Source of the DNA: Streptomyces albus subsp. albus
GTDB taxonomy: Bacteria > Actinomycetota > Actinomycetes > Streptomycetales > Streptomycetaceae
NCBI RefSeq assembly: GCF_000725885.1
Contig: NZ_JODR01000006.1
Span: 1-64,000 of the forward strand
Direction: 5' to 3'
DNA: 64,000 nt
Numbering within the stretch: position 1 is the first letter of the stretch; each line of letters begins with the position of its first letter. The position numbers and the translations under genes are program-made. Positions 25,979 to 44,755 of this stretch are shown here, in pieces. The notes below the pieces were generated by a model. The model saw only the letters and a program-made list of their open reading frames with translations, was not told where the DNA came from and made no database searches.

Positions 25979-28900
25979 TCAGGAGATGCCGAACTCCTTG
26001 CCGAGCAGGTCGAACATCTCCTCGTCCGTCGCCGCGTCGAGGCCGTCCCCCTCCGGGGGCTGCGCCCCCGCCGTGGCGTCCTCGCCCCGCCAGCGGGCGA
26101 GGAGACGGGTCAGCCGCATGACGACGCGGGCGCGCTGGAGGCTGTCCGCGTCGGCGGCGTCCAGGCTCTCCTCCAGCGCCGCCAGCCGTTTCTCGAGGCT
26201 GTCGGCGGGCGTCTCGTCCTCCGCGATCAGGGTGCGCAGGAACGCGGCGGCCTTGCGCGGTGTGGGGTGGTCGAAGGCGAGGGAGACCGGTGCGGTCACC
26301 CCGAGGACCGTCTGGATGCGCCGGCGGAGCCCGACCGAGGCGAGGGAGTCGAAACCGAGCTGGCGGAAGGGCAGATCCGCCTCGATGTCCTCGGCCGAGG
26401 AGTGTCCCAGCACGGCTGCCGCCTGGGCGCGCACCACCTCCAGGAGGGCGCCGAGCTGTCCGGCGGGCGGCAGCGCGGCGATACGCCCGCGTTCGCGTGC
26501 GGCGTCGTCCTCGTCCGGCGCGGCGGGGGCCGTCTCGTCCGCGGCCGGGCGCGGTGCCTGCGGCAGGTCGTCGAGCAGGGGCCTGGGCCGGGCGGCGGTG
26601 TAGCCGGGCAGGAAGCGTTCCCAGTCGACATCGGCCACCACCACGGTGGTCTCGTCACGCAGCAGCGCCGTCTCCAGCGCGCGCACGGCCAGGTCCGGTT
26701 GCATCGGCCGCAGTCCGCGGCGGCGGAGTTGTTCCTCCCCCGCCTCGTCGAGCATGCCGTCGCCGCCCCACATGCCCCAGGCCACCGAGGTGGCGGTGGC
26801 GCCGCGCGCCCGCCGCTGCCCGGCCAGCGCGTCCAGGTGAGCGTTGGCGGCGGAGTACGCGGCGCTCAGGCCGCTGCCCCAGGTGGCCGACGCGGACGAG
26901 AAGAGGACGAAGGCGTCCAGTTCCCGGTCCGCGAACAGGGTGTCCAGCGCGACGGCGCCCGCGACCTTGCCGCCGAGCGTCGCCGCGCACTCCTCCAGCG
27001 ACACCGCCGCCAGCGGGGTGGTCTGCGGCACCCCGGCGGCGTGCACCACTGTCCGCACGGGCGGCCCCTGGGTCTCCACGTCCTCGACCAGGGCGCGGAG
27101 CGCGTCCTGGTCCGCCACGTCGCAGGCGGCCAGGTGGACGGGCACCCCCGACTCCTCCAGCCGTGCTTTGAGGGCGCCGGCTCCCGGCGCGGCCGGGCCG
27201 CTGCGGCTGACCAGCACCAGCCGTTCGGCGCCGGCGCGGGCCAGCCAGTGCGCAACGTGCCCGCCGAGTGCGCCTGTTCCGCCGGTGACCAGGGCGGTGC
27301 CGCGTGCCCGGAAACGCCGTCCGTCGCCGTTGCCCGTGGTGGCGCCGGGTGCGGGCACCAGCCTCCTGACGTACACGCCCGAGGCACGGATCGCGAGCTG
27401 GTCCTCGTGGCCGGGGGCGCGCAGTACGGCGGCGAGTGAGGCGGCGGCGCCGGACTCCAGCCGGGCGGGAAGGTCGATCAGCCCGCCCCAGCGGTCCGGG
27501 TGTTCGAGCCCCGCCACCAGCCCGAGCCCCCACACCTGGGCCTGCGCGGGGCGGGCGGGCTCCTCGTCGCCGGTCACCGCGACGGCGTGCGAGGTGAGCA
27601 GCCACAGGGGCGCCCGGACCTGTGCGTCGCCCAGTGCCTGGGCGAGCAGCAGGCTGGAGGCGAGTCCGGCGGAGACCGTGCCGTCCGGGGCGGGGTTCTC
27701 CTGGGCGGCGGCGGGTGACAGCACACCGGCGAGTGCGGTGCCCGGCGTTCCGTCCGCCGTGCCGTCGGCCGTCTCCTCGGCCAGCAGCCGGGTGATCCGC
27801 TCGGCGAGCGAGGCCCTCTCCCATGTCGTCCCGTCGAGGTGCAGACGGAGGGTGCGGGCACCGTGTGCGGTCAGGGCGGCGTCGATCTGTTCGCTCCACG
27901 CGCTGTCGGTGCCGCCGGATGTCACCACCAGCCAGCGGCCCGCGAGGGGGCCGGCCGTGCCGGCTTGCTGCCAGGGCTTCCACTGCACGCGGTAGCGCCA
28001 GCTGTCCAGGAGCGCGGCCTCTTCCTGGCGGCTGCGCCAGTCGGCGAGCGCGGGCAGTACCCGGCGCAGGGCGTCGCGCGCCGCCTCGTCGGCGTCCAGT
28101 CCCAGTTCGCCGGCGAGCCGGTCGTCGTCGGCGGTGCGCACCGCGTCCCAGAAGCCGGTGTCGAGCGGTGAGGTGCCGCCCGCCGGTTCGGGCGGCGCGG
28201 CGGGCGGCAGCCAGTGGCGCTGCCGCTGGAAGGCATAGGTGGGCAGTTCCGCCCGGGGTGCCGGGTCTTCCTGCCGGGTGCCGGTGCGGCTGTCGAGCAC
28301 CGCGTCCCAGTCGACGGGCAGCCCGTGCACCCAGCCCTCGCCGGCGGACAGCAGCAGCCGCCGCAGCGCGTCCTCCCCCTGGCGCAGCGAGCCGAGGACC
28401 ATGGCGGTGCCGTCGGCCTGCTCGATCGTTTCCTGCATCCCGAGGGTGAGGGCGGGGTGGGCGCTGACCTCGACGAAGTACCGGGTGCCGTCGGCGGCGA
28501 GCCGGGAGATCACCTCGGACAGCCGTACGGTGTGGCGCAGGTTGCGGAACCAGTACCGTCCGTCCAGTGCGGTGCCGTCGACGACCGCGGCCTCGACGGT
28601 GGAGTACAGCGGCACCGTCCCGGCGGCGGGGCGCAGTCCGGTCAGTCCGGCTTCCAGTTCCGTGCGGACCGGGTCCATGTGCGGCGAGTGGCCGGCGACG
28701 TCCGCCTTGACCCGCCGGGTGTGCACCCCGGCCTCGCGGCAGGCGGCGCGCAGCTCGTCCAGGTCCGGGACGGGGCCGGAGACCACCACGGAGCGGGGGC
28801 CGTTGACGACCGCGACGGACAGCGCCGTACGGCCGGCGAGCAGCGCGTCGAGCTGTTCGCCGCCGGCGGCCACGGCCACCATGCCGCCCGTGCCGGACAT

Positions 28901-31012
28901 CCGCCGCAGCAGCCGCGACCGCACGGAGACCACGGTGGCGGCGTCGGCCAGCGGGAGCGCTCCGGCCACGTGCGCCGCGGCGATCTCGCCCAGCGAGTGG
29001 CCGACGACGGCCGCGGGCTCGACGCCCCAGGCTCGCCACACGGCGGCCAGGGAGACCATCACGGAGAACAGTGCGGGCTGGAGCACGTCGATCCGCTCGC
29101 AGAACTCGCCCGGGGCGCGGCCTGCGATCACATCGTCCAGTGTCCACTCGTCCCACCAGGAGACCCGTTCACGGAAGGCGTCCGTGCACCGTGCCAACTC
29201 CTGGGCGAAGACCGGGCAGTTCTCCAGCAGTCCGGCTCCCATGCCCAGCCATTGCGGGCCCTGGCCGGGGAAGACGAGCGCGACGGGGCCGGGACCGGCC
29301 TCCGCCGTGCTGCCCCACACGGCGCCGTCAGCGGTGCCCTCGCACGCGGGCGCCCCGGCCACCGCCCGCAGTCCGGCGGCCAGTTGTGCCCTGCTGTCCC
29401 CGACGACCACCGCCCGCTCGCCGAGCTGGGCGCGGCCGGTGGCCAGCGTCCTGGCCACGGCGGCGGTGTCGGCGGGGGTGCCGGCCGTCTCGTCCGTCCC
29501 CTGCGCGACGGCGGCCAGCCGGGCGGCCTGGCCGCGCAGCCCGGCCAGGCCGCGGCCGGACAGCACCCAGGGGACGGGTCCGCGGTGTCCGGCGGGCTCC
29601 TGCGGCGGGGCGTGGGGCGTGGTGGTGGGCGGGGCCTCCTCCAGGATGACGTGGGCGTTGGTGCCGCTCATGCCGAAGGAGGACACGCCCGCGCGGCGGG
29701 GCCCGTCGGCCTGCCACGGCCGGCGTTCGGTCAGGAGCCGGACGGTGCCGGACGACCAGTCCACCTCCGGGGTGGGTCGGGCCGCGTGCAGGGTGGGGGG
29801 CAGCACGGCGTGCCGCATCGCCATGACGGCCTTGACGACTCCGGCGAGACCGGCGGCGGCCTGCGCGTGGCCCAGGTTGGTCTTGACGGAGCCGAGCCAC
29901 AGCGGCCGGCCGGGCGGACGGGTCTCGCCGTAGGTGGCCAGCAGGGCGCGGGCCTCGATGGGGTCGCCCAGCCGGGTCCCGGTGCCGTGCGCCTCCACCA
30001 GGTCGATCTGGTCGGGGCTGAGCCCGGCGTCGGCGAGCGCGGCGCGGATCACCCGCTGCTGGGCGGCGCAGCTGGGTGCGGTCAGCCCGTTGGAGGCCCC
30101 GTCCTGGTTGACGGCCGAGCCGCGTACCACCGCCAGTACGCGGTGGCCCCGCCGCAGCGCGTCCGGCAGCCGCTCCAGCAGCAGCATGCCGGCGCCCTCG
30201 CCCATGCCGAACCCGTCGGCGTCGGCGGAGAAGGCCCGGCAGCGGCCGGTGGGCGACAGTCCGCGCTGCCGGCTGAACTCGATCAGCGGCCCGGGGACCG
30301 GCACGACGGTGGCGCCGCCGCCGAACGCCAGGTCGCACTCGCCGCGCCGCAGGGCCTGGACCGCCAGGTGCAGGGCGACCAGGGAGGACGAGCAGGCGGT
30401 GTCGACGGTCACGGCGGGGCCTTCGAGGCCGAGCAGGTAGGAGATGCGGCCGGAGGCGACGCTGGTGGAGGTGCCGGTGGCCAGGTAGCCCTCGACGGCG
30501 GTGGCGTCGTGCTCGGCGCCGGTCCCGTAGTTCTGCGCGGCGGTGCCGACGAAGACGCCGGTCCTGCTGCCGCGCAGCGAGGTGGGGTCGAGGCAGGCGT
30601 GTTCGGCGGCCTCCCATGCCGTCTCCAGCAGGAGACGCTGCTGGGGGTCCATCGCGGTGGCCTCGCGGGGGGAGATGCCGAAGAAGCCCGCGTCGAAGGC
30701 GGACGCGTCGCGCAGGAAGTACCCGGTCCGGACGTAGCTTGTACCCGGCCGGTCGGGGTCCGGGTCGTGGAGGGCTTCGAGGTCCCAGTCCCGGTCGGCG
30801 GGCAGCGGACCGCCGGCGTCGGTGCCGTCGTGCACCAGCCGCCACAGGGCGTCGGGGCCGTCGACGCCGCCGGCGAAGCGGCAGCCGATGCCGACGACGG
30901 CGACGGGCTCCTGCGCCCGGTCCAGCACCTCCTGGAGCCGGCGCCGGGTTCTGCGCAGGTCGGTGGTGACCTTCTTCAGGTACGTCCGGAACTTCTCTTC
31001 ACTGTCGGTCAT
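25979..31012 (-). CDS. Modular type I PKS, ethylmalonyl module: docking-KS-AT-KR-ACP-docking (PKS5)
   Basis: ATG at 31012 with AAGGAG 11 bases upstream. The docking segment ([19 protein letters not shown]) leads into KS (about 30910-29640; TACSSS, HGTGT, NLGH). AT (about 29280-28220) has GHSLGE and, at the specificity site (about 28701-28686), VAGH instead of YASH or HAFH. XAGH-type motifs are associated with ethylmalonyl-CoA, and a crotonyl-CoA carboxylase/reductase gene lies 5 kb away. KR (core about 27310-26760) has the A-type Trp without the A2 His and no LDD, so A1-like. ACP has GFDSL (about 26345), followed by an acidic docking tail ([13 protein letters not shown]). The docking ends resemble those of PKS4, suggesting the two act next to each other in the early or middle part of the line. 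It is the only PKS here on the minus strand. Confidence 0.96.
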
Positions 31013-31667: not shown

Positions 31668-32339
31668 TCAGCCGTCCGCCGTGCCGAACACGTCGTCGAG
31701 TGCCCGGTCCAACGGCACCGGCCCCGCGGTCAGTTCGCAGATGCGGCCGATCGCGGCGGGCCGTTCCAGCAGGGCGACGACGGCCGCGGCCACGTCGGCG
31801 CGGCCGATCTCCCCGGGCGGCGGAAGGGGGCCGGTGGCCCGGGCGAGGCGCACTCCCCCGCCGGCCGGCGCGTCCGTGAGCCGTCCGGTCCGCAGGATCG
31901 TCCAGTCCAGGTCGCGGGTTCGCACATCGGCCTCGGCCGCCGTCTTGCCCGCGACGTAGGCGTCCTTCCCGTCCGTGGTCCAGGGCTGCCCGTCGGCGCC
32001 GTACCAGTTGCTGACCATCAGGTATCGGCGGACGCCGGCCTGTTCCCCGGCCGCCGCGAACCGAGCGGCGGGGGATCGTCCGGCGGCGGTGCCCGGGCCG
32101 CCGGTCCCGGCCGCGAGCACGAGGGCGTCCGCGCCCCGGAGCGCCGCCGGCAGGGCGGCTGCCGCCCGCGGACCGTCCTCCATGAGCACCGCTTCGGCTC
32201 CGAGGGCCCGCAGCCGGTCCCCGTGCGCACCGGCGGTGGCGGCCCGCAGGAGGGCCACCGGCCGGTCCCCGCGGGCGGCGAGTGCGGCGGCCACCAGGCC
32301 GCCCAGGGCCGTGGAACACCCGAGCACGACTACGCGCAT
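31668..32339 (-). CDS. NAD(P)-binding NmrA/atypical SDR-family protein
   Basis: A 223-residue protein starting MRVVVLGCSTALGGLVAAAL, a Rossmann dinucleotide-binding loop in the extended/atypical short-chain dehydrogenase style. LVLAAG follows strand four; YVAGKTAAE provides Tyr and Lys; DWTILRTGRLTD is the segment usual for NmrA-like and NAD(P)H-binding (PF13460-type) proteins. The family includes reductases, epimerases and regulators, so the reaction is not predictable. It is divergent from the P450 gene (87-base gap) and may form a unit with the ferredoxin downstream. A redox or tailoring role in the polyketide pathway is inferred from position only. Confidence 0.8.
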   Translation of the reverse strand: MRVVVLGCSTALGGLVAAALAARGDRPVALLRAATAGAHGDRLRALGAEAVLMEDGPRAAAALPAALRGADALVLAAGTGGPGTAAGRSPAARFAAAGEQAGVRRYLMVSNWYGADGQPWTTDGKDAYVAGKTAAEADVRTRDLDWTILRTGRLTDAPAGGGVRLARATGPLPPPGEIGRADVAAAVVALLERPAAIGRICELTAGPVPLDRALDDVFGTADG

Positions 32340-32426
32340 GACCGCCGAGTGTAGAGCGGAATTGTCCGCCGGAGAATCCGCCGGCGCACATCCCGTACGA
32401 AAGCACTACGAGGAAAGGAACCTTAC

Positions 32427-33638
32427 GTGCCGGACCCCACGCCGAAAGTGCGGAGCCTTCCCCTGCACCGGAGCTGCCCCTTCGACCCGCCGGACGAATA
32501 CAAACAGCTCAGGGCCGAGGAACCGGTCAGCCGGGTGCGGTTCGCCGACGGCCAGGAAGGCTGGCTGCTGACGAAGTTCGAGGACGTCAAGTCCTTTCTG
32601 CTGGATTCCCGCTTCAGTTCGAACCGCAATATCGCGGCGCGCACCCGGCACACGTACGAGAAACCGAAACTCCCGGCCGGCGCGATGGTGAGCATGGACC
32701 CGCCGGAGCACACCCGCTACCGCCGCATGCTGGCCGGGCAGTTCACCACGCGGCGGGTGCGGGCGCTGGAACCGCGGATCGCCGGCTACGTCTCCCAGCA
32801 GCTCGACGAGATGGAGAAGGCCGGCCCCGGCGTCGATCTGGTGGAGACGTTCGCGCTGCCGGTGCCGTCCCTGGTCATCTGCGACCTGCTGGGTGTGCCC
32901 GCCCGCGACCGGCACGACTTCCAGGCGTGGGCGCAGACCGTGCTCAACGTGGACCTGCCGATCGAGCAGGTGCAGCGGGCCAAGGAGCGGCTGTTCTCGT
33001 TCATCACCGAGCTGGTGCGCGAGAAGGCGCGGCATCCGCGCAACGACATCATCAGCGGCCTGCTGCACTCCCCGGCCGAGGACCGGCTGACGGAGGAGGA
33101 GATCATCGGCGTGAGCGTCCTGCTGCTGATCGCCGGGCACGAGTCGACGTCGAACATGCTGGGCATCGGCGCCTACGCCCTGATGCGGCATCCGAAGGAG
33201 CTGGCCAAGCTCCAGGCGGAGCCGTCACTGATCGACAACGCCGTGGAGGAGCTGCTGCGGTATCTGTCGATCGTGCATCTGGAGTTCATCCGCACGGCCA
33301 CCGAGGAGGTGGAGTTCGCCGGTCACCTCATCAGGCCCGGGGAGACGGTGAAGGGTTCGATGGTCTCCGCGAACCGGGACCCGGACCGCTACCCCGACCC
33401 GGACGTGCTGGATCTGACCCGCGAGGACGTGCACCATCTGACGTTCGGCCACGGCATCCACCAGTGCATCGCGCAGCAGTTGGCCCGGATGGAGATGCGG
33501 GTGGCCTTCTCGCTGCTCTTCACCAGGTTCCCCACCCTGCGTCCGGCGATCGCCCCGCAGGACGTCCGGTTCAAGGACGACTCGGTGGCCTACGGCGTCA
33601 AGGAACTTCCCGTCACCTGGGACACGGCTGCGGTCTGA
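32427..33638 (+). CDS. Cytochrome P450 (tailoring hydroxylase/epoxidase candidate)
   Basis: GTG start at 32427 behind GAGGAAAGGA. The 403-residue soluble P450 has the I-helix LIAGHESTSN, the K-helix ExxR in EELLRY, and a heme loop FGHGIHQCIAQQLARME with the Cys ligand. Length and motifs fit the CYP105/CYP107 type that oxidises macrolides and other polyketides late in assembly. Divergent to the NAD(P)-binding/ferredoxin pair, which could supply electrons. An exporter follows 187 bases downstream. The site of oxidation cannot be read from sequence. Confidence 0.93.
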   Translation: MPDPTPKVRSLPLHRSCPFDPPDEYKQLRAEEPVSRVRFADGQEGWLLTKFEDVKSFLLDSRFSSNRNIAARTRHTYEKPKLPAGAMVSMDPPEHTRYRRMLAGQFTTRRVRALEPRIAGYVSQQLDEMEKAGPGVDLVETFALPVPSLVICDLLGVPARDRHDFQAWAQTVLNVDLPIEQVQRAKERLFSFITELVREKARHPRNDIISGLLHSPAEDRLTEEEIIGVSVLLLIAGHESTSNMLGIGAYALMRHPKELAKLQAEPSLIDNAVEELLRYLSIVHLEFIRTATEEVEFAGHLIRPGETVKGSMVSANRDPDRYPDPDVLDLTREDVHHLTFGHGIHQCIAQQLARMEMRVAFSLLFTRFPTLRPAIAPQDVRFKDDSVAYGVKELPVTWDTAAV

Positions 33639-33825
33639 GCACCATGGAAACCGCACACGGGACCGGAGCCCGCCACGGACGGGGTAACACCGGTGCCGGG
33701 GCGGTCGGCACGGCGGCGGCCTACCGCGCCCGGGGCGGGTCGGGCGGTTATCTTCGCAGGGCCCACCGGGCCCCCGCCCGCGCGCCGGCCGGCCCGCGGC
33801 CCCGGCCGAGAGAAGGAAGCGGCGT

Positions 33826-35343
33826 GTGCTGAACGCCTATCGTTCACTCCTGACGATCGACCATCTGCCGTCCCTCTTCGCCTGTTCGGTCGTGAGCCGG
33901 CTGACGGTCACCACCCTGCCGATCGCCGAGTCGCTGCTGATCGTCGAGTGGACCGGCTCGTTCGCCCAGGTGGGCATCGTCACCGGCGTCCAGGCCGGCG
34001 CGCAGGCGCTCTCGGCGCCGCTGCGGGGCCGGGCCGCGGACCGCGGCTCGGTGCCGTGGGTGGTGACGGTCAGCGCGCTGTCGTTCGCCGGCAGTCTGGC
34101 GGCTCTCGCCGCCATGACGGCGTGGCTGCCGGCGTCGAGCTGGCCGCTGGCCGTACTGGTGGCCGTACTGGCCGGGCTCAGCACCTCCCCGGTTCCCCAG
34201 GTCAGCCGCGCGGTCTGGCCGCGTCTGGTGGGCGAGGAGCACCTGGCGCGGCTCTACACGCTGGATGCCACCGGCCAGGACGCCGCCGCGACCCTGGGGC
34301 CGCTGCTGGCGTCTCTGACGGCCGCGGCGCTGAGCCCCGCCGTCTCCGTCGGGACGTGCGCCGTGCTGGCGGTCGGCGGCTCGCTGGCCTTCGCGCTCGC
34401 CTACCACCGCTCCGGCCTCGCCGCCCGGCCGCTGCACCAGGAGACGGGGACGGCGCGGACGGCGGGGACGGCGGGGACGGCGGGGACACAGCCGGCGCAC
34501 GGCGCCGCCGGTCCCGCGGGCGGCACGGACGGCGAGGAGCGCACGAGAGGCGCGGACAGCGGCGGCGGAGGCGTGGCGCCCGAGCCGCCCGGGGCACCGG
34601 CCGGACGGCGGATGCTGCTCGCCGAGCGGGGCTTCCTTCCGGTGCTGCTGGTCGCCATGTGCGTGATGGCGTCGATCTACACGATCAACCTGTCCGTCGT
34701 GGCGTACAGCACCCACACCGGACAGGTGGGGCTGTCCGGTGTGCTGATCTGCGTGTGGACGGTCGGCTCCCTGGTGGGCGGACTCACGCTCGGCGCCACC
34801 TCGTGGGAGCTCAACCACACGGGGCTGCTGCTGGCGCTGGCGGCGGGCATGGGGGCGCTCGCCGCCGTGCTGCCCCCGGCGCGGGAGGCGACACCGGTCG
34901 CCGTGATCGGGCTGGTCCTCTTCGCGGGCGGCCTGGTCCTGGGGCCCAACATCGCGGCCAACAACACGCAGATCGCCGAGGTGGCCCCCGAACACCGCCG
35001 TACGGAGGCGTTCGGCTGGCTCCAGACGGCGACGACCGGCGGCTCCGCGCTGAGCATGATGCTCGCCGGCGCGCTGCTGGACACCGCCGGGCCCGCGGCG
35101 GCCGTCGGCGCCGGTACGGGGCTCGCCCTGCTCGCGGTCCTGGTGCGGTGCTGCACGGTCACCCGCCCCGGCAGCGGGCGCTCCGCCGGTACGGGGCCGT
35201 CCGGCCGTCCCGTGGCCGCGCGGCCCGCCGAGCCGGACGACCGCCGTTCCGCGGGACCGCGCGGCTTCGCCCTCAGCCGGAGCGCCGCCCGGCGGACAGC
35301 CGCTCGGCGACAAAAGCGGCGACGTCCCGGGGGCGCTCGCTGA
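33826..35343 (+). CDS. MFS transporter, probable polyketide exporter
   Basis: GTG start at 33826 with AGAAGGAAG upstream. The 505-residue protein has two halves of hydrophobic segments, roughly residues 15-210 and 265-445, separated by a 55-residue hydrophilic loop with a tandem Thr-Ala-Gly repeat. This is the usual two-bundle MFS layout. The last 60 residues are Arg/Gly/Ser-rich and look unlike a transporter tail; their DNA overlaps the end of the opposite-strand thioesterase gene by 71 bases. Its place beside P450 and thioesterase genes suggests export of or self-protection against the polyketide. Substrate unknown. Confidence 0.85.
   Translation: MLNAYRSLLTIDHLPSLFACSVVSRLTVTTLPIAESLLIVEWTGSFAQVGIVTGVQAGAQALSAPLRGRAADRGSVPWVVTVSALSFAGSLAALAAMTAWLPASSWPLAVLVAVLAGLSTSPVPQVSRAVWPRLVGEEHLARLYTLDATGQDAAATLGPLLASLTAAALSPAVSVGTCAVLAVGGSLAFALAYHRSGLAARPLHQETGTARTAGTAGTAGTQPAHGAAGPAGGTDGEERTRGADSGGGGVAPEPPGAPAGRRMLLAERGFLPVLLVAMCVMASIYTINLSVVAYSTHTGQVGLSGVLICVWTVGSLVGGLTLGATSWELNHTGLLLALAAGMGALAAVLPPAREATPVAVIGLVLFAGGLVLGPNIAANNTQIAEVAPEHRRTEAFGWLQTATTGGSALSMMLAGALLDTAGPAAAVGAGTGLALLAVLVRCCTVTRPGSGRSAGTGPSGRPVAARPAEPDDRRSAGPRGFALSRSAARRTAARRQKRRRPGGAR
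34452..34487 (+). repeat. 9-bp tandem repeat in the MFS central loop
   Basis: Three perfect copies of GGCGGGGAC at 34461-34487 preceded by one degenerate copy (GGCGCGGAC, 34452-34460). It encodes Thr-Ala-Gly units in the cytoplasmic loop between the two transporter halves; copy changes would keep the frame. Confidence 0.85.
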
Positions 35344-36037
35344 GGAAGAAGTGCCCGCCGGGGAACACCTTCAACTCGAAGCCGCCCGTGGTGTGTTTCT
35401 GCCACGCGGCGGCGTCCTCGCGGGAGGTGCGGGGGTCGCACGCGCCGGTCAGCGCGGTGACGGGGCAGCGCAGCGGCGGCGCCGCGGTGAACCGGTAGGA
35501 CTGGAGCGCCCGGTAGTCGGCACGCAGCGGCTCCAGGATCATCCGCAGGGTCTCCTCGTCCTCCAGGAGCCCCGGATGGGTGCCGCTCAGCAGGCGGATC
35601 TCGGCGAGGAGACCGCCGTCGCCCGTCAGGTCGACCGCCCGTCCCGGCGGCCGGTCCGGCGCCCGCCGCGCGGAGACGAACAGCCTCGACGGCGAGGCGT
35701 CCAGCCGCTGCGCGAAGCGCTGTGCCACCTCGTACGCCAGCAGCGCGCCCATGCTGTGACCGAGGAACGCCATGGGGCGGTCCGCCTCCTTGCGCAGCCG
35801 GGCGAACAGCAGGTCCGCCAGGGTGTGCAGATCGGTCACGCACGGCTCGGTGTGCCGGTCCTGCCGGCCCGGGTACTGGAGGGCCCACACGTCGAACCGG
35901 TCGGCGAGGGCCAGGCACAGCGGACGGTAGAAGCCGGCCGACCCGCCCGCGTGGGGGAAGCAGACCAGCCGGTGCGCCCCGGGCGGACCGGGCCGGTAGC
36001 TGCGCATCCACGGGTCGCACGTCCTGGCTGCCTTCAC
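35273..36037 (-). CDS. Type II thioesterase
   Basis: GTG start at 36037 with GGGAGG five bases upstream. The 254-residue alpha/beta hydrolase has CFPHAGGSA near the N-terminus, the nucleophile elbow GHSMG, a late Asp in TGACDPRTS and the catalytic His in GGHFFLSE. These are the hallmarks of stand-alone type II thioesterases, which clear misloaded or decarboxylated acyl groups from PKS carrier domains. Divergent from ccr across 319 bases that share candidate regulatory motifs with other cluster promoters. Its 3' end overlaps the MFS gene (35273-35343) on the opposite strand. Confidence 0.95.
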   Translation of the reverse strand: MKAARTCDPWMRSYRPGPPGAHRLVCFPHAGGSAGFYRPLCLALADRFDVWALQYPGRQDRHTEPCVTDLHTLADLLFARLRKEADRPMAFLGHSMGALLAYEVAQRFAQRLDASPSRLFVSARRAPDRPPGRAVDLTGDGGLLAEIRLLSGTHPGLLEDEETLRMILEPLRADYRALQSYRFTAAPPLRCPVTALTGACDPRTSREDAAAWQKHTTGGFELKVFPGGHFFLSERPRDVAAFVAERLSAGRRSG

Positions 36038-36356: not shown

Positions 36357-37721
36357 ATGCGGGAGATCATCGAGGCCGCACTGGCGCAGGACGCGGTCGC
36401 GGCGGACTTCGCCGCGCTGCCCGTCCCGGCGTCCTATCGAGGCGCCGTCGTCCGCCGGGAGGACGCCGGAATGTTCGACGGCCTGCCGGCCGCGGAGAAG
36501 GACCCGGCACGGTCCTTGCGGGTGACGGAGGTGCCCACACCCGAACTGGCCCCTGACGAGGCTCTGGTGGCGGTGATGGCCAGCGCGGTCAACTACAACA
36601 CCGTGTGGAGCGCGCTGTTCGAGCCGGTGTCGACGTTCGCCTTCCTGGAGCGGTACGCACGCTCGGACGCGGTGGGGGCGGCCCGGCACGACCGGCCGTA
36701 CCACGTCCTGGGCTCCGACCTGGCGGGCGTGGTGCTGCGCACCGGTCCGGGGGTGCGCCGGTGGCGGCCCGGGGACCGGGTGGTGGCGCACTGCCTGTCC
36801 GTGGAGCTCCAGTCGCCCGACGGGCACGACGACACGCTGCTCGACCCGGACCAGCGGATCTGGGGGTACGAGACCAACTTCGGCGGTCTGGCCGAACTGT
36901 CCGTGGTCAAGGGCAATCAGCTGATGCCGATGCCGTCGCATCTGACCTGGGAGGAGGCCGCCGCCTCCGGCCTGGTCAACTCCACGGCCTACCGGCAGCT
37001 CGTCTCCCGGCACGGGGCCGGGATGAAGCAGGGGGACGTGACGCTCGTCTGGGGCGCCGCGGGCGGACTGGGCTCGTACGCCACCCAGTTGGCGCTCAAC
37101 GGCGGCGCGATCCCGGTGTGCGTCATCTCCGGGCGGCGCAAGGCGGATCTCGTCAGGTCGATGGGCGCCGAGCTGGTGATCGACCGGGAGCGGGATGGCT
37201 ACCGCTTCTGGAGGGACGAGGCGACGCCCGACCGGAAGGAGTGGCGGCGGTTCGGTTCCCACATCAGGGAGCTGACCGGCGGGGAGGACCCGGACATCGT
37301 CGTCGAGCACCCGGGCAGGGAGACGTTCGCCGCGAGCGTGTACGTGGCCCGGCGCGGCGGCACGGTGGTCACCTGCGCCTCCACGTCCGGGTACCGGCAC
37401 GAGTACGACAACCGCTACCTGTGGATGTCCCTCAAGCGTGTCGTGGGCAGTCATTTCGCCAACTACCGGGAGGCGTGGGCGGCCAACCGGCTCATCGCCA
37501 AGGGGATGATCCATCCCACGCTCTCCCGGGCGTATCCCCTCTCCTCGGTGGGCACCGCCGCGCAGGACGTGCACCGCAACCGGCATGCGGGAAAGGTGGG
37601 CGTGCTGTGTCTGGCGCCCCGGGAAGGGCTGGGGGTGCGGGACACGCAGCTTCGCCTACGGCACCTTTCCGCCATCAACCGTTTCCGCGTCCCGGCCGCG
37701 GCGCCGGGTGAAGCCGTCTGA
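36357..37721 (+). CDS. ccr: Crotonyl-CoA carboxylase/reductase
   Basis: ATG 36357 with GGAGGA at good spacing. The 454-residue protein belongs to the zinc-independent medium-chain dehydrogenase/reductase family: ASAVNYNTVWSALFEP near residue 80, VLGSDLAGVV, WGYETNFGGLAE, the NADPH loop VWGAAGGLGSYATQLAL and EHPGRETF. This pattern is specific to crotonyl-CoA carboxylase/reductases, which reductively carboxylate crotonyl-CoA to (2S)-ethylmalonyl-CoA with NADPH and CO2. It fits the PKS5 AT motif (VAGH). Upstream is a structured leader. Downstream, a weak hairpin (37805-37827) may end the transcript. Confidence 0.96.
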   Translation: MREIIEAALAQDAVAADFAALPVPASYRGAVVRREDAGMFDGLPAAEKDPARSLRVTEVPTPELAPDEALVAVMASAVNYNTVWSALFEPVSTFAFLERYARSDAVGAARHDRPYHVLGSDLAGVVLRTGPGVRRWRPGDRVVAHCLSVELQSPDGHDDTLLDPDQRIWGYETNFGGLAELSVVKGNQLMPMPSHLTWEEAAASGLVNSTAYRQLVSRHGAGMKQGDVTLVWGAAGGLGSYATQLALNGGAIPVCVISGRRKADLVRSMGAELVIDRERDGYRFWRDEATPDRKEWRRFGSHIRELTGGEDPDIVVEHPGRETFAASVYVARRGGTVVTCASTSGYRHEYDNRYLWMSLKRVVGSHFANYREAWAANRLIAKGMIHPTLSRAYPLSSVGTAAQDVHRNRHAGKVGVLCLAPREGLGVRDTQLRLRHLSAINRFRVPAAAPGEAV

Positions 37722-38031
37722 TTTCTCCGTCTTTACGCCGCCCGGGCATTCCCCGGAACGGGCCCTGCACTCCCAGAGAATCGCACTGAGCGAAATTCGC
37801 GTACCGGTGGCAATGCTTCGGCCACCGCTTTCCCGCCGCCTGTCGCACCGGGCGCACACGGAAAGGAACCGAAAAACTCCCCCTGCGGCTCCCCGCCACC
37901 ACCTGACGAGGTTTCACCGTGCGTGCCGACAGCAAGAATATTGGTCGCAGCATTGATGAATACCCGGCGCAGCTTTGGTGAACGGTTCCGCCTTGGCCGC
38001 GCTTGTCCGGCGCGAGAGGAGCCTTCCCACG
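37722..38031 (+). promoter_or_regulatory. Leader and promoter region of the LAL regulator gene
   Basis: 310 bases without a gene. A 7-bp stem (CGGTGGC/GCCACCG, 37805-37827) with a 9-base loop may terminate ccr. An A/T-rich patch (about 37930-37962, GAATATTGG...TTGATGAATA) stands out against the GC-rich background and could hold the promoter. GAGAGGAG at 38014-38021 is the ribosome site for GTG 38032. Confidence 0.45.
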
Positions 38032-40839
38032 GTGACACCGTTCGCCGAGCAGAAACTGCCGCCGCACCTGCTGGTTCCCGGATTCGACACCTGGCGCGAG
38101 GAGAGCGGCCTGATATTCGTCAGGGGGGCGCGGTACGCGGGAAAGACCACCCTGCTGAACGCCCTGGGGGAACGGGCCGCGGAATCGGGAGCGCTGGTGC
38201 TGTGGGCGACCGGCTGGCCCGGCGAGCACGGTTTGCCGCACGGCGTGGTGCGGCAGTTCCTCGAAACGCCCGAGGAGACGCACGGACATCCGGACGAAGT
38301 CTTCGCACACGCCGGACCCGGACCCCAGGACGCCGACGGCACACCGCCCGGCGCGGCATTCCCCGAACGCGCCTACCGCCGCCTCCTCGACCTCGCCGGA
38401 CGACGTCCCGTCCTCCTCGCGGTGGACGACCTCAACTACGTGGACGCGCCCTCGCAGCACTTCCTGCGCTACCTGGCGCGCCGGCTGAAAGGCACCCGCA
38501 TCCGGCTGGTGCTGGCCGAACGCACCGGCCAGGCCGTCTCCTACTGCGAGGACTTCCGCACGGACGTCATGCGGCTGCCGTACACCCGCACGGTACGGCT
38601 GCGCCCGCTGACGGCCGACCAGCTCACCGCCTGGATCGGCGAACAGATCCGCGCCGTCCCGGGCCCCCCGGTGCGCACGGCCGCACGGCGGATCGCCGTG
38701 GCGGTGCACGAACTGAGCGGCGGCAACGTCCAGCTCGCCGGACTGCTGACCGCCAAGTACCTGGCGGCGGCCGGCCGGGGCGGCACCGCCCCGGCCGTCG
38801 ACGCGGAGTTCCGCGAGACCGTCCGGGCCATGGTCGACGACATCGACGTGCCGGGCGTCAGCCGGGGCGCGCGGGCGGCGGCCGTCCTCGGACGGTTCTG
38901 CTCCGCGCGGCGACTGGGCCGGCTGCTGCAGGGGGACACCGTGCTGGCCGACCGGGTGCTGCGCGCCCTGGACGACCTCGGCATGCTGCGCGGGCCCCAG
39001 GTGCGGCAGCACGCGGCCCGCGCCCTGGTGGAGGACCCGGACTTCGCCGAGCTCCCCGACGTGCACCTCGCCGCGGCCCGCGTCCTGTTCGAGGACGGGG
39101 TGCCCGTCGAACACGTCGCCCGCCATCTGCGGGCCGCGGGCAGGATCGGCCGGCCCTGGGACCCGCCGCTGGTCCTGGAGGTCGCCCACCGCGCACTGGA
39201 GGAGGGCCGTACGGAAGCGGCCGGAACGCTGCTGCGGCTCGCCCGTACCGCGGCGGGCACCGAGGAGGACCGCGCGCGGGCGGAGATCCTGCTGCTGCGC
39301 AGCGAATGGCTGGCCGACCCGCCCCTGGTGGCGTCCCTGGTGCCCTCGCTGACCGCAGCGGCACGCAACAACGTGCTGCCGGCCGCCGACATCGCCTTCC
39401 TGGTACGGGCGTTGACGGTGCACGGCTTTCCCGACCGGGCCGAGGAACTGCTGCCGGCGCTGCGCACCGCGGACCGCAAACCGCAGGAGGAGGCGGAGGT
39501 GCTGCTGGCGGAGGCCCTGCACGGCGTCTGGCAGGGCGTGCCGCCCCACCGGGTCCCGCCCGGCCCGCACCGGCCCCCCGCCCGCGACGACACCTCCCGC
39601 CGTCTGCTGACCGGACCGTACGCCTGGCTGCCGACCGTCCTGCACCGGATCCCCCGCCTGCTGCACGCCGGTGACCGGCAAGGCGTCGTTTTCGCGGCCG
39701 AACAACTGCTGGAGGGCATCCGCGTCAAGAGTTCGGGGGTGGAGCCCTTCCTGTTCGCCTGCTGGGCGCTGGAGGCCGTCAACGCCCTGCCGCAGGCCCG
39801 CAAACGGTGCCTGGAGCTGGCCGGGGAGTTCGACGGCCGGCCCTCGCCCGTGTGGACGTCCCTGCTCGCCGCCGTACAGGCACGGATCGCCTTCGCCTCG
39901 GGCGATCTGGACGGCGCCCACCGCCGGCTCGGGCAAGCGCTGGCGCACAAGTCCTGGCAGGAATGGGGCGCCAAGGCGGGGGCGCTGGCCGGGCTGCTGG
40001 TGGAAGTGCTGACGGAACGCGGACGGCACGAGGAGGCGGCGGACGTACTGGACCGCCCCGTCCCGCCGGCCGCCTTCCGGGGACTGAACGGTGTGCGGTA
40101 CGTACGCGCCCGCGGCCGGCACCATCTCGCGGCCGGCCGGCTGCACGCGGCCGTGGCCGACTTCGAGAACTGCCGGGACACCTTGGCCGTGCTCGACACC
40201 GACCTGCCCGCCGTGGTGCCGTGGCGGTGCGACCTTGCGGAGGCGTATCTGCGGATGGGCGACACGGCGGGCGCCCGGCACCTGCTGGAGGAACAGCTGG
40301 GCGAGCTGCCCGCCGAGGAGACGGCCGCCGAGGGCGTGGCACTGCGGCTCCTGGCCGCGGCCGGGCCCGCCGAGCGGCGGATCCCCGGCCTCAAGCTGTC
40401 GGCGGAGAAGCTGGAGCGGGCCGGCAGCCGCCTCCAACTCGCCTACACACTGGCCGAGCTGGCCTCCGCATACCGCGAGGCCGCCCGGCTGAGCCTGGCC
40501 CGGACGACGATCAAACGGGCGCAGCGCCTGGCCCAGCAGTGCGACGCCGGCCGGCTCGGGCAGCTCCTCGCGCTGCACGGCAGTCCCGTGGCACCGCACG
40601 ACGACGTGCCGCTCGCGGACCACACCGAGCTGGCCAAGCTCAGCTCCGCCGAGCGCCGGGTGGCCCTGCTGGCCATCCGGGGCCACACCAACCGGGAGAT
40701 CTCCACCCGGCTGTTCATCACTCCCAGCACGGTGGAGCAGCATCTGACGCGGATCTACCGGAAGCTGCGGGTGCGGCACCGGGAGGATCTTGAGGACCGG
40801 TTCTCGTCCGCGCTGGTCGGACTCGACGCGCTGACGTGA
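38032..40839 (+). CDS. LAL-family (large ATP-binding LuxR) transcriptional activator
   Basis: Chosen start GTG 38032, 10 bases after GAGGAG; in-frame TTG 37975 and GTG 37978 lie upstream but lack a ribosome site. The 935-residue protein has a Walker A loop GARYAGKTTLL near residue 35, Walker B VLLAVDD near residue 128, a long helical TPR-like middle, and a C-terminal LuxR helix-turn-helix (LSSAERRVALLAIRGHTNREIS...STVEQHLTRIYRKL). LAL regulators usually switch on macrolide and polyene clusters. Its position in the tailoring block makes it the likely cluster activator. Candidate sites are the CCCTA-type motifs upstream of ccr/thioesterase and the EPSP/ligase gene. No TTA codon was seen in it. 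Confidence 0.93.
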   Translation: MTPFAEQKLPPHLLVPGFDTWREESGLIFVRGARYAGKTTLLNALGERAAESGALVLWATGWPGEHGLPHGVVRQFLETPEETHGHPDEVFAHAGPGPQDADGTPPGAAFPERAYRRLLDLAGRRPVLLAVDDLNYVDAPSQHFLRYLARRLKGTRIRLVLAERTGQAVSYCEDFRTDVMRLPYTRTVRLRPLTADQLTAWIGEQIRAVPGPPVRTAARRIAVAVHELSGGNVQLAGLLTAKYLAAAGRGGTAPAVDAEFRETVRAMVDDIDVPGVSRGARAAAVLGRFCSARRLGRLLQGDTVLADRVLRALDDLGMLRGPQVRQHAARALVEDPDFAELPDVHLAAARVLFEDGVPVEHVARHLRAAGRIGRPWDPPLVLEVAHRALEEGRTEAAGTLLRLARTAAGTEEDRARAEILLLRSEWLADPPLVASLVPSLTAAARNNVLPAADIAFLVRALTVHGFPDRAEELLPALRTADRKPQEEAEVLLAEALHGVWQGVPPHRVPPGPHRPPARDDTSRRLLTGPYAWLPTVLHRIPRLLHAGDRQGVVFAAEQLLEGIRVKSSGVEPFLFACWALEAVNALPQARKRCLELAGEFDGRPSPVWTSLLAAVQARIAFASGDLDGAHRRLGQALAHKSWQEWGAKAGALAGLLVEVLTERGRHEEAADVLDRPVPPAAFRGLNGVRYVRARGRHHLAAGRLHAAVADFENCRDTLAVLDTDLPAVVPWRCDLAEAYLRMGDTAGARHLLEEQLGELPAEETAAEGVALRLLAAAGPAERRIPGLKLSAEKLERAGSRLQLAYTLAELASAYREAARLSLARTTIKRAQRLAQQCDAGRLGQLLALHGSPVAPHDDVPLADHTELAKLSSAERRVALLAIRGHTNREISTRLFITPSTVEQHLTRIYRKLRVRHREDLEDRFSSALVGLDALT

Positions 40840-41340
40840 CCCGCGCGCCGCACGGGCGCTCGGCCCCCGGGCCGGGCGACGCCCGTCGTGCGCGGCCCGG
40901 TGCCGCGCGCGACCGCTTCCGCCCGTGCGGCGCCCCCACCAGGGGGGGGCGGGGACGGACCGTCCCTGCCGCGGCCGTACGACGCCGCTGCGCGGAGCCC
41001 CCGCCGGCCCCCGCCGTACGGCTCACGGCGCGGCGCGCCCCCGGCCACCGGGCCCGGCCGTCCGAAGGGCTCATCCTCCTGGCCTGCCCGGCGGGCTCGT
41101 CCATCCACCGGTCCCTGTCCCCGGGTTTCCAGCCGCCGGGGCGGCCACTGGGTCCCGTCCACCGACCCGGCAACCGGGTTCCGTCCGCCGGACCGTCCGC
41201 CGCCGGTGCCGAACTCGGCGCCGACAGCGGCCTTCAATGCCCCGGACGTCGGCCAACCCCGCCTCCTGCCTGCCCCTCCCCGGCGGCGCCCCGGACAGGG
41301 CGGATCCGGCACGATCGTGGATGCCGCGGGAAAGCCGTCT
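40840..41340. other. Non-coding gap with weak hairpins
   Basis: No credible gene in about 500 bases between the regulator stop and the reductase remnant. A 7-bp stem (ACGGGCG/CGCCCGT, 40852-40886) just after the regulator stop may be its terminator. Other structure: ACCCGG/CCGGGT hairpin at about 41164-41178 and the palindrome CACGATCGTG at 41310-41319. The gap may be debris of a deleted reductase gene or genes; no protein similarity is visible in any frame. Confidence 0.4.
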
Positions 41341-41744
41341 CCTCAGCGCTGCCTCTCCGCCACGAGACGGTGTGCCGCCCAGCCCCTCCGCCGTGGCGCG
41401 GACCGCGCGTTGAGCCCCCGCGTCCCCGCCGCTCCCCCGGCGGTGACGCAGGGCCCCCGGCCTCGCGCAGGAGGGCGGCGGTGCCGTCGTCGTCGGGGCG
41501 CTGTCCGGTGGCCGGCAACACGTGGCCGGCGCGCACCAGCCGCTCCCCCTCCGGCCCGGCGACCAGGAATCCGTCGCGGGTGATACGGCGGCACGCCACA
41601 CCGGTCCGCATCCGCACCCCGGCGGCGCGCAGGTGCCGCAGCACCACCCAGCGGGTGCTCGCTCCGATGCCCTCGCCGGTCGTCCGGCCCCGACCGCTGC
41701 GGCCGGGCCGCTCCGCCACCCGGTGTGCCCGGTGCCTCGCTCAT
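41341..41744 (-). pseudogene. 3' remnant of a 2,4-dienoyl-CoA reductase-like gene
   Basis: The minus strand encodes GEGIGASTRWVVLRHLRAAG...VRTGV-like...VLPATGQRPDDDG..ALLREAG (about 41719-41460), matching the C-terminal nucleotide-binding part of FadH-type 2,4-dienoyl-CoA reductases. The expected end, GDAGAQRAVRATAEGL, is present (about 41425-41375) but in a different frame, so at least one frameshift separates the two. The large N-terminal flavin barrel and iron-sulfur region are missing. An ATG overlapping the stop of the preceding EPSP/ligase gene (ATGA, 41741-41744) opens in yet another frame, suggesting the start survives with an internal deletion. Reductases of this type belong to known cyclohexanecarboxylate-CoA operons, so this looks like a decayed member of that cassette. 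Confidence 0.72.
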
Positions 41745-44700
41745 GCCGGGTCCTCGTCGTGCGGCTTGAGGGTGCGGGCCCTGGCGCGCAGGGCGTACTT
41801 GCGTACTTTGCCGACCGGGTTGCGCGGCAGTTCGGGGAGTTGTTCGAGCCGTTCCGGCCAGTGCTGCTTGGCGACCTGGTGCTCGTCCAGGTAGCGGCGC
41901 ATCTCCGCGAAGCCGAAGCCGGCGCCGTCCTTGAGGACGGCGAAGGCACAGGCGCGTTCGCCCAGCCGGGCATCGGGCATGGCCACGACGGCGATGTCCT
42001 CGACGGCGGGGTGCGCGGAGAGCAGCTGCTCGATCTCGGCGACGGGGATCTTCTCCCCGCCCCGGTTGATGACGTCCTTGACGCGGCCGGTGATGCGCAC
42101 GAAGCCGTCCTCGTCGACGACCGCGAGGTCGCCGGTGCGGTACCAGCCGTCCGGGGTGAAGGCGTCCGCCGTCAGGTCGGGCCGGTCCAGATAGCCGTCG
42201 AACACCGTGGGCGAGAGCACTTCGAAGTTGCCCTCGGTGCCCGCCGGCAGGGGGCGGCCCGTCTCGTCGGTCACCCGCAGCCGGACGCCGTCCAGCGCGC
42301 GTCCGTCGGTGCCCCAGCACCGCTCGGGCGGGTCGGTGGGCGCGGAGAGCGTGCCCAGGCAGGTCTCGGTGGTGCCGAACGCCCCGCACACCCTGGCGCC
42401 CAGTACCCGGCCGGCGCGCTCCGCCAGGGGGCGCGGCACGGTGGCGCCGGTGGCGACGAAGACCCGCATGTCGCGGGGCCGTCGACCGGTGTCCTCCACG
42501 GCCTTGACGAGGTCGAACAGGAAGGGCGTGGCGGCCTGGGTGAAGGTCGCCCGGTGGTCGTCGAGGGAGGCGAGGGCGCGTCGCGCGTCCCATTCGGCCT
42601 GGAGGATCTGCGGCACCCCCAGCACGGTGGCCAGCACCATGCCGTAGAGGAACCCGGTCTGGTGGGCGAGCGGCGAGGGCACCCAGACGGTGTCGGTGGC
42701 GTCGAGACCCAGCTGCCGGATCTCCATCGAGGCGGCCCGCACCAGATTGGCGGACGAGTGCGTCACGCCCTTGGGTTCGCCGGTGGTGCCGGAGGTGAAC
42801 AGCAACTGGGCCGTCGCCCCGGGTGCGGGCCTGACGGCGGCCAGGGCGGCGCGCTCGTGGGCCGTCGTCTCCGGGACGGCGGCCCAGTCGTGGACGGTGA
42901 CGTCGCAGGCGGGGTCGGACGGCAGCCGCGCGGGCCCTCCGGAGCGGGAGACCACCACCAGGTGACGCAGCCCGTCGGTGCGCCCGGCGGCCAGGGCCAG
43001 CGCCTCCCGTGCGGGTTTCCGGGAGCGGTACTCGTCCATGGTCACCAGGACCCGTGCCCGGGCGCTGCGCAGTACGAAGCCGAGTTCCCGGCGGCGGAAG
43101 AAGGGGATGACGGGGCAGCAGACGGCGCCGATCCGCCAGGCGGCCAGCGAGAGCACCACGAATTCCAGCCGGTTCGGCAGCTGGTAGGCCACGTGCTCGC
43201 CCGGCCGGACGCCGAGCCGCAGCAGGAGGGCCGCGGTCCGCTCGACGCGCCGGGACAACTCCCGCCGGCTGACGACGAGGTCGCCGTCCGGCCGTACGTC
43301 CACCACCGCGGTCCGGTCGGGGGACGCCTCGGTGTGCCGGTCCAGCCACTCCGGCAGGCTGAGCCGGGATGCCTCGTCCGGGTCGGCGGCGGTGGGGGGC
43401 AGGGGCCGGCGGACGGGGGGCGGGACGCTGCTCCTGGCGGGGCGCGCGCGGCCCTCCTCGACCTTCATGGGGATGCCGAGGCCGTTCATGGCGTCGAGGA
43501 AGCCCGGGTAGGAGATGCGGTAGGCGTGCGGGAAGGTCAGGGCGGAGTGGCCCTTGGCCCGGGATGCGGCGACGGCCAGCGACATCAGGACCCGGTGGTC
43601 GTTGTACGTGGACAGCGCGGTGCCCGTAAGTGTCTGTCCGCCGGCCACACGCAGGGTGTCGCCGGCCAGTTCCACCTGGCCGCCCATGGCGTTGAGCTGG
43701 CACATGGCTGCGGCCCGGTCGGATTCCTTGAGCCGGGTGTGTGCGATGTTGCGGAAGACCGAGGCGCCGTGCGCGAAGGTGCCGAGGGTGGCGAGGACCG
43801 GCAGCATGTCGGGGATGTCCCGGCAGTCGACGTCCACGGCTGTGAGCAGCGGCGCGTCCTGCCTGACGCGGATGCCGCCGGCCGCCTCGTCCGGTTCCAT
43901 CGGCACTCCCATGGCGCGGGCGATGTCGAGGAAGCGGTGTTCCGGATGGTCGCCGGGCCCGCCGCCGGGGCCGGTCAGTCCCCGCAGCAGCACGTCGCAG
44001 GGGTGGAGTGCGGCGGAGGCGATGCCGTACGCCGCAGAGCCGATGTCGGGCGGCAGGGTCAGCTCGGCGGGGTGGGCGCTCTGGCCTGGCGGTACGTCGA
44101 AGCGCCGCCAGTCGGGCGAGACGTCCACGCGGAGTCCGAAGCGCCGCATCATCTCGACGGTCAGCTCCAGATAGGTCCGCTCGTTGAGTTCGCCCGCCAC
44201 CTCGACCACCGTGGGGCCGGTGGCGAACGGTGCCAGCAGGAGCACGCCGGAGACCCACTGGGAGAGGGTGCCGGGCAGCAGTACGTGTCCGCCCGTGGGC
44301 CGCCCGGGACTGACGCGTACGGGCGGGCAGTCGTCCACCGACTCCACCCGCACTCCCAGCTGTCGCAGGGCGCGCAGCAGCGGTCCCACCGGGCGGCGCC
44401 GGAAGTACTTCTGGCCGGTGATGGAGACGGCGTGGTCGGCCAGCGAGGCGAGGCCGACCATGAAGTAGAGGGTGCTGCCGGAGCTGCCGACCGACAGGAC
44501 GGTGCGGCGCGGCCGGTAGCGCCCGCCGAACCCCCGTACGACGAGCGAGTCACCGGCCCGCACGACGGAGGTGCCCAGGCCCTGGAGCATCCGCACCGTG
44601 TAGGCGACGTGCCGGGCGTCGGTGAGCCCGTGGATCCGGCTCTCGCCGGCCGCCAGCGAGGCCAGGATCAGCGCGCGGTGCGCGTGGTACTTGGAGTTCG

Positions 44701-44755
44701 GGACGGTGACCTGCCCGGTCACCCGGTGCCGGATTCCTTCGACGAGAAGGTGCAT
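41741..44755 (-). CDS. EPSP-synthase-like / acyl-CoA ligase fusion (shikimate-derived starter unit)
   Basis: About 1004 residues from ATG 44755 (GAGGAG 12 bases upstream; an in-frame GTG near 44807 is possible). The first 430 residues are an EPSP-synthase (AroA) fold: VPNSKYHAHRALIL, GQKYFRRRPVGPLL, LSQWVSGVLL, IPDMLPV, RLKESDR, TYNDHRVLM. Compared with AroA from memory, the Ser after the active Lys is Tyr, the GTAMR Arg is lost and the late Lys of the AKTFP segment is missing, so ordinary EPSP synthesis is unlikely. Residues about 450-1000 are an acyl-CoA ligase: TSGTTGEPKG, GAFGTTE, GWYRTGD, terminal NPVGKVRK. The same fusion (PlmJK type; separate AnsJ and AnsK) occurs in pathways turning shikimate into cyclohexanecarboxyl-CoA. 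It probably dehydrates and activates a shikimate derivative as a PKS starter. Confidence 0.88.
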   Translation of the reverse strand: MHLLVEGIRHRVTGQVTVPNSKYHAHRALILASLAAGESRIHGLTDARHVAYTVRMLQGLGTSVVRAGDSLVVRGFGGRYRPRRTVLSVGSSGSTLYFMVGLASLADHAVSITGQKYFRRRPVGPLLRALRQLGVRVESVDDCPPVRVSPGRPTGGHVLLPGTLSQWVSGVLLLAPFATGPTVVEVAGELNERTYLELTVEMMRRFGLRVDVSPDWRRFDVPPGQSAHPAELTLPPDIGSAAYGIASAALHPCDVLLRGLTGPGGGPGDHPEHRFLDIARAMGVPMEPDEAAGGIRVRQDAPLLTAVDVDCRDIPDMLPVLATLGTFAHGASVFRNIAHTRLKESDRAAAMCQLNAMGGQVELAGDTLRVAGGQTLTGTALSTYNDHRVLMSLAVAASRAKGHSALTFPHAYRISYPGFLDAMNGLGIPMKVEEGRARPARSSVPPPVRRPLPPTAADPDEASRLSLPEWLDRHTEASPDRTAVVDVRPDGDLVVSRRELSRRVERTAALLLRLGVRPGEHVAYQLPNRLEFVVLSLAAWRIGAVCCPVIPFFRRRELGFVLRSARARVLVTMDEYRSRKPAREALALAAGRTDGLRHLVVVSRSGGPARLPSDPACDVTVHDWAAVPETTAHERAALAAVRPAPGATAQLLFTSGTTGEPKGVTHSSANLVRAASMEIRQLGLDATDTVWVPSPLAHQTGFLYGMVLATVLGVPQILQAEWDARRALASLDDHRATFTQAATPFLFDLVKAVEDTGRRPRDMRVFVATGATVPRPLAERAGRVLGARVCGAFGTTETCLGTLSAPTDPPERCWGTDGRALDGVRLRVTDETGRPLPAGTEGNFEVLSPTVFDGYLDRPDLTADAFTPDGWYRTGDLAVVDEDGFVRITGRVKDVINRGGEKIPVAEIEQLLSAHPAVEDIAVVAMPDARLGERACAFAVLKDGAGFGFAEMRRYLDEHQVAKQHWPERLEQLPELPRNPVGKVRKYALRARARTLKPHDEDPA

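Follow-up and report, generated by a model that had tools for sequence, protein, structure and literature searches.

The modular polyketide synthase (PKS) cluster at the beginning of contig C6 of Streptomyces albus subsp. albus has lost most of a cyclohexanecarboxyl-CoA (CHC-CoA) cassette, retaining the intact first gene, JK, and a stump of the last gene, M. We consider it likely that the starter pathway is split over two loci, such that the cluster keeps the committed enzyme JK and the later steps are borrowed from an operon on contig C18. The window, which is the whole stretch of DNA analyzed here, comprises the first 64 kb of contig C6 in a draft genome of 7.63 Mb and 104 contigs, and opens inside a modular PKS gene. 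In the arrangement that we propose, a deletion of ∼3.8 kb in the CHC-CoA cassette of a phoslactomycin-like PKS cluster would have begun near the start of L, taken in ChcA, and ended at about codon 567 of M, leaving as its scar an M stump that is now divided between two frames; we infer a single deletion event as the cause. JK would be retained in the cluster for diversion of shikimate and formation of the CoA ester, the L, ChcA, and M steps would most likely be supplied in trans by the C18 JK-L-ChcA-M-FabF operon, and the PKS would still start with cyclohexanecarboxyl-CoA. The C18 operon would have an omega-cyclohexyl lipid as its main job, and would presumably be expressed when the PKS is.

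An intact JK gene and a relic of M

JK, an EPSP-synthase-like/acyl-CoA ligase fusion of the plmJK/pnP1 type, lies on the minus strand at 41741..44755, as indicated by Pfam and NCBIfam matches, the homologue P0001, the tree, and dN/dS ratios (see below). In the plm and ans pathways, JK draws off shikimate and forms the CoA ester; the name is taken here after plmJK in Table 2 of PMC5852498. The frame is open across 41741-44956 and includes the Pfam domains EPSP_synthase, AMP-binding, and AMP-binding_C, in agreement with the preliminary description of this DNA, which had reported an intact fusion of the CHC kind beside the relic. The start is probably M68 (ATG at 44755), because the identical database protein P0001 is 1,004 aa long. 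The first half matches aroA with 306 bits, above the NCBIfam cut-off, and the top NCBIfam match of JK is a cyclohexanecarboxylate-CoA ligase model with 456 bits, which is below the cut-off of that model.

What remains of M, a plmM-type (FadH-like) reductase, is a C-terminal stretch of 114 residues encoded on the minus strand at 41352-41692, whose two adjoining pieces are read in different frames. Using an HMM profile built from 33 cassette M proteins, with cut or fragmented Ms excluded, we found that the first piece (41453..41692) matches model positions 567-646 of 687 (hmmsearch, 70.0 bits, E 4.2e-21), and that the second (41352..41453, followed by a stop at 41343-41345) matches positions 647-680 in another frame, with E 0.29 on its own; by these positions, the second directly continues the first in the protein. 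Of the 742 stop-to-stop segments of at least 25 aa in the window, the next best after the first piece has an E value of 0.039, and the pieces score 70.7 and 8.3 bits compared with 5.2 bits for the best of 500 dinucleotide shuffles of 41345-41740. This is therefore a genuine gene relic, which confirms the decayed C terminus over two frames noted in the preliminary description. The relic is the last sixth of M, with one frame change and without the N-terminal FMN barrel; the barrel (PF00724) is found at three places in the genome, none of them at 41341-41744, and the ORF covering the relic behind JK has no Pfam match. The N terminus is thus missing as had been described, but about five-sixths of M is gone rather than two-thirds. 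Because about 3.8 kb is absent, and not one base, a corrected sequence could not yield a full-length gene here. Identity of the two relic pieces is 55% and 53% to M of the phoslactomycin-type cluster of Streptomyces sioyaensis, and 42% and 42% to M on C18 of the same genome; copying from C18 was rejected, as the relic is closer to the phoslactomycin-type M.

An ATG at 41742..41744 on the minus strand overlaps the JK stop (ATGA at 41744-41741). The overlap had been noted in the preliminary description; this ATG more probably marks the former start of L, the acyl-CoA-dehydrogenase-like gene that has been lost, than that of the reductase. A candidate L start is at the same -3 position in 21 of the 44 loci printed with L, including three of the four phoslactomycin-type loci, a count that leans upward since the script chose the candidate nearest to the JK stop. 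A reductase start can be dismissed, as L comes after JK in those relatives having L.

Extent of the loss among JK loci

The usual order in relatives is JK-L-ChcA-M, and the window is without L, ChcA, and about 566 codons of M, amounting to 3,780 bases when measured on the S. sioyaensis locus. No L or ChcA is present beside JK by tblastn at E 1e-8 within window positions 36001-50000. The suspected loss of reductive genes from the local cassette is thus borne out, and goes two genes beyond the reductase.

Scanning genome contigs with two peptide patterns yielded 47 JK-family loci, an incomplete census, because the scan missed the second JK of Streptomyces sulphureus; searches of 101 and 120 genomes (overlapping sets) added one further JK, at the same place as L022. 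A gene is scored as absent when tblastn at E 1e-8 finds no match to it in the flank that was fetched. All four genes in the order JK-L-ChcA-M are present at 30 of the 47 loci, with M cut by the contig end in L021 and fragmented in L019, L039, and L053. M is missing from 6/47 (L027, L032, L033, L046, L047, and L051), as is ChcA from another 6/47 (L034, L035, L036, L040, L052, and L058), and three loci (L031, L043, and L059) are left out of the count. JK stands alone at the remaining two, L041, which is S. sulphureus DSM 40104, and L061, a doubtful draft contig of Streptomyces sp. 8L. The latter was rejected as a third JK-only case, as 35 bases past JK the contig no longer follows its relatives, and an M (61%) is present on another contig; we provisionally treat its JK-only state as a matter of draft assembly. 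The JK of Streptomyces ipomoeae (P0002) is 76% identical to the window JK and 79% to that of Streptomyces piniterrae; in a protein search with L, S. ipomoeae is not named among the best 120 of 917 matches.

The PKS cluster and its counterpart in S. sulphureus

Five ORFs at 93..31012, the first of them cut by the contig start, are the modular PKS genes served by the cassette, as judged from the ORFs, a motif scan, and synteny with S. sulphureus. The AT motifs vary; one module has an ER domain, and another has an AT motif that we take to be of the methylmalonyl type. No thioesterase domain was found by Pfam in the last two PKS ORFs (18962-31012), and none stood out in a motif scan of the other three, so that product release may depend on a separate type II thioesterase (35273..36037, minus strand), identified by Pfam. 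Between the PKS genes and this thioesterase are genes of the same cluster for an NAD-binding protein, a cytochrome P450, and an MFS transporter (31668..35343; Pfam), whose order is kept in S. sulphureus. A plus-strand crotonyl-CoA carboxylase/reductase gene (CCR; 36357..37721), for ethylmalonyl-CoA supply, matches TIGR01751 with 575.9 bits and is 81% identical to its S. sioyaensis counterpart. It is followed by a large LuxR-type regulator (37975..40839, plus strand; 50% to S. sioyaensis) that is convergent with JK and has the place and orientation of the cassette-side regulator in phoslactomycin-type loci. The roughly 500 bases separating the regulator from the relic (40840..41342) contain no recognized gene; none of six overlapping ORFs matched Pfam at E 0.1, and a gene was ruled out on this basis. 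There is little space between M and the regulator in S. sioyaensis.

The same genes from PKS to JK are present in S. sulphureus DSM 40104 and are syntenic with the window, with identities of 86% for the P450, 83% for CCR, 74% for JK, 69% for the thioesterase, 63% for the regulator, and 64-84% for PKS stretches. In this cluster too JK is alone, without L, ChcA, or M; ∼155 bases separate the JK stop from the end of the regulator, and the M profile finds no remnant at this locus at E 0.01. On the far side of JK, the seven ORFs scanned are ordinary-looking (e.g., Ku, ferritin, and DNA glycosylase). Because the S. sulphureus cluster is also JK-only, the loss of L, ChcA, and M is shared or repeated in the two genomes and is hardly an assembly fault. 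The available part of a paper on S. sulphureus (PMC10268602) concerns pyridinopyrones. Two P450-like ORFs to the right of the window JK have no counterpart in the S. sulphureus stretches read. An ORF beside JK at 44998-46314, likewise not found there, matches a P450 only weakly, at 16 bits, short of the curated cut-off.

A complete second cassette on contig C18

The preliminary description had proposed looking for chcA and a full-length reductase elsewhere in the genome, and both were found in a complete JK-L-ChcA-M-FabF operon at C18:242790-249994. The second JK (C18:242817-245822) is 66% identical to the window JK; the C18 L, ChcA, and full-length M have the expected full Pfam domains, and FabF scores above its curated cut-off. 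ChcA occurs in one copy at E 1e-35 both in this genome, where it is the C18 copy, and in S. sulphureus, and L occurs in one copy at E 1e-60 in each of eight genomes examined, the copy of this strain likewise being on C18. In S. sulphureus, the five genes JK-L-ChcA-M-FabF lie ∼490 kb from the PKS cluster, on the same contig. Four genomes whose phoslactomycin-type clusters have kept L and ChcA (S. sioyaensis, Streptomyces pacificus, S. piniterrae, and Streptomyces kronopolitis) have one L each. A complete second cassette thus accompanies two of two JK-only clusters (L061 left out) compared with none of four phoslactomycin-type clusters keeping L and ChcA, a comparison of small numbers whose pattern is seen in two genomes only. 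The C18 operon genes have dN/dS ratios of 0.08-0.30 against four relatives, and of 0.16-0.41 against S. sulphureus.

Because its fifth gene is FabF, the JK-L-ChcA-M-FabF operon, including that on C18, is probably for omega-cyclohexyl lipids; among the literature matches listed for omega-cyclohexyl fatty acids there was no gene paper. The five-gene row is conserved in six Streptomyces genomes (C18, which is L013, and L086, L055, L024, L037, and L060). Five other loci, L026, L028, L031 (Eremiobacterota), L038, and L043, have a KS gene just upstream of JK instead.

Phylogeny and constraint of JK

In a maximum-likelihood tree of 47 JKs, which left out L014 (same place as L022), L043, L053, and L059, the window and S. 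sulphureus cluster JKs form one clade (100/99) that groups with four phoslactomycin-type JKs (100/100). The stand-alone JKs (C18, the second S. sulphureus copy, and those of Streptomyces cacaoi, Streptomyces iconiensis, Streptomyces diacarni, and Streptomyces reniochalinae) form a clade of their own (100/100). These separate clades argue that the C18 operon is not a recent copy of the cluster cassette, with which the relic identities (55% versus 42%) agree. We use the label phoslactomycin on the basis of gene order, compared with PMC5852498, and because a JK listed for Streptomyces platensis is 99.4% identical to the L045 JK. S. platensis SAM-0654 is a phoslactomycin strain (PMC5852498), and may differ from the S. 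platensis of the listed JK.

Between the window and S. sulphureus, dN/dS is 0.27 for JK, 0.28 for PKS3, and 0.16 for CCR, and ranges from 0.14 to 0.41 over six cluster genes (JK, CCR, LuxR, thioesterase, P450, and PKS3). These ratios indicate that the window JK is under purifying selection, and decay of JK is not supported by its value of 0.27. The end branches of the JK pair are long (0.29 for the window and 0.25 for S. sulphureus, with a median of 0.052), so that a change of function is conceivable. At columns that are otherwise invariant, the window JK has five private changes and the S. sulphureus JK has six, compared with six in L038 and five in L031; five such changes, as in the window JK, are also reached by some JKs of complete or cut loci.

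The loading module

The loading module is on contig C43 and part of the first module is on C62, both linked to the cluster by the S. sulphureus comparison alone. The loading AT-ACP shares 65% identity with its S. sulphureus counterpart and 61% with the S. sioyaensis one, and has the same motifs, GHSFGEIAAVTAAG and IAGHS; by similarity, it is a putative CHC/phoslactomycin-type didomain in its choice of substrate. The loading-module gene (L094, G000:C43, positions 1-950) has a frame change near the contig end, inside the KS region, which is probably, although not proved to be, an assembly fault in a repeated KS.

In the accessible parts of the sources, the phoslactomycin PKS is primed with cyclohexanecarboxyl-CoA (PMC9730843), and its loading module, when moved into the avermectin PKS, is described as CHC-CoA-specific (PMC4581413). 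That avermectin PKS was given its starter by an introduced CHC-CoA cassette, according to the same portion of PMC4581413, so that an unlinked cassette can feed a modular PKS. Asukamycin producers, as far as the accessible text of PMC4147253 goes, use CHC-CoA both for the antibiotic and for omega-cyclohexyl fatty acids (3.1% of total), and also make variants with branched starters.

Alternative readings

Several other explanations can be considered for a cluster with JK and little else of its cassette. The preliminary description took the loss of L, ChcA, and M to mean that JK makes a partly unsaturated or hydroxylated cyclic acyl-CoA that primes the PKS. It would fit with this that, in both genomes, the cluster no longer has the partners of a JK that is itself open and constrained, and that the JK end branches are long with some private changes (five in the window JK and six in that of S. 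sulphureus, although L038 and L031 are similar). However, a complete cassette is held by both genomes, the loading module keeps its phoslactomycin-type motifs, and with seven ordinary ORFs beyond the S. sulphureus JK there is no shared extra enzyme there. The reading is unsupported, since genes for the missing enzymes are present at another place in the genome, and we consider it quite unlikely. A related version, to which we give slightly less credence still, is that JK has changed function to make a ring acid of a different oxidation level (cyclohexadiene, cyclohexene, or hydroxylated), with the loss of L, ChcA, and M being adaptive and the C18 operon serving lipids only. It is also improbable, to about the degree of the unsaturated starter, that the loading module takes an ordinary branched acyl-CoA and that JK is only a ligase reactivating ring acids freed by the thioesterase. 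An EPSP-synthase-like half that is open and has its full Pfam domain would be needless for a pure ligase, and the loading module resembles the phoslactomycin type, even though the ligase half of JK is intact and the branched-starter variants of asukamycin producers (PMC4147253, in the part available) offer a parallel.

The relic could alternatively reflect decay of the whole cluster, which would be silent and free of selection, in keeping with the lost cassette genes, the broken M frame, and the frame break in the loading-module gene near the C43 end. We regard this as unlikely, if less so than the readings above: six genes have dN/dS ratios of 0.14-0.41 against S. sulphureus, synteny from PKS to JK is kept, and short-read assemblies are known to break off within PKS genes. 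A sequencing or assembly artefact might be suspected in a draft genome of 104 contigs, but it would have to account for the absence of about 3.8 kb, and the genome of S. sulphureus, sequenced separately, is without these three genes at the corresponding place; we find it scarcely credible. Counting against a pathway split between the cluster and C18 is that C18 has its own JK, so the cluster JK should be dispensable, yet it is constrained. Our guess is that dosage, or control by the regulator of the cluster, is the reason why the cluster JK persists.

Relation to known systems

The phoslactomycin/lactomycin clusters (plm, pn, and lm) have the order plmJK-plmL-chcA-plmM and the regulator plmR1. 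The window cluster resembles them in the grouping of its JK, the regulator beside the cassette, CCR, the type II thioesterase, and the loading module (61% to S. sioyaensis), but it differs in being without L, ChcA, and most of M, and in having one module with an ER domain and another with the methylmalonyl-type AT motif. No protein kinase, ferredoxin, or aminotransferase genes, as listed in Table 2 of PMC5852498, were noticed among the subset of window ORFs scanned. The stand-alone operons (S. cacaoi, S. iconiensis, S. diacarni, S. reniochalinae, S. sulphureus, and C18) have the same pathway genes as the cassette and are the proposed supplier in trans; they differ from the window cassette in their separate JK clade and in being FabF-linked. 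The ansatrienin and asukamycin CHC cassettes share the pathway logic of the window, and the sharing of CHC-CoA with fatty acid synthesis in asukamycin producers (PMC4147253, in the part available) is a further likeness; in contrast to the window, they are complete where visible, and the Streptomyces seoulensis locus (L023), whose L is named AnsA3 in UniRef (P0142), has all four genes.

We found no report of such a split starter pathway among the titles and abstract openings listed by searches of the open-access literature, outside which most subscription papers lie. If supply in trans is correct, the starter of an assembly-line antibiotic depends on an operon that probably makes a membrane lipid, while the cluster keeps the committed step. 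For genome mining, an incomplete starter cassette then need not mean a new starter, and the rest of the genome should be searched first. This strain and S. sulphureus are a natural pair for testing supply in trans.

Other gene losses and neighboring loci

A second C-terminal stump of M is present at L027 (Streptomyces sp. NRRL B-1140) at 14960-15316, right behind ChcA, and matches positions 556-633 of the M profile (27.1 bits) and, in another stretch, positions 644-670 (5.6 bits). A lineage other than that of the window has thus also lost M down to a C-terminal remnant, while keeping L and ChcA. JK, L, and ChcA without a full M are likewise seen at L046 (S. pacificus; 15063-15380), L047, L032, L033, and L051. 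Each of these six genomes without a full cassette M has a FadH-type homologue elsewhere (42-44%). That a general FadH-type enzyme may be able to replace M is only a hint, because two M-bearing genomes, S. sulphureus and S. sioyaensis, also have a FadH-type homologue elsewhere. The six ChcA-less loci (L034, L035, L036, L040, L052, and L058) are Arthrobacter and Cellulomonas cassettes with JK, L, and M. Farther along the window, at 56307-62512, genes for a polysialyltransferase-like protein, a glycosyltransferase, and a single protein with adenylation, carrier, and NAD-binding (reductase-like) parts stand in a row, and probably constitute a separate locus.
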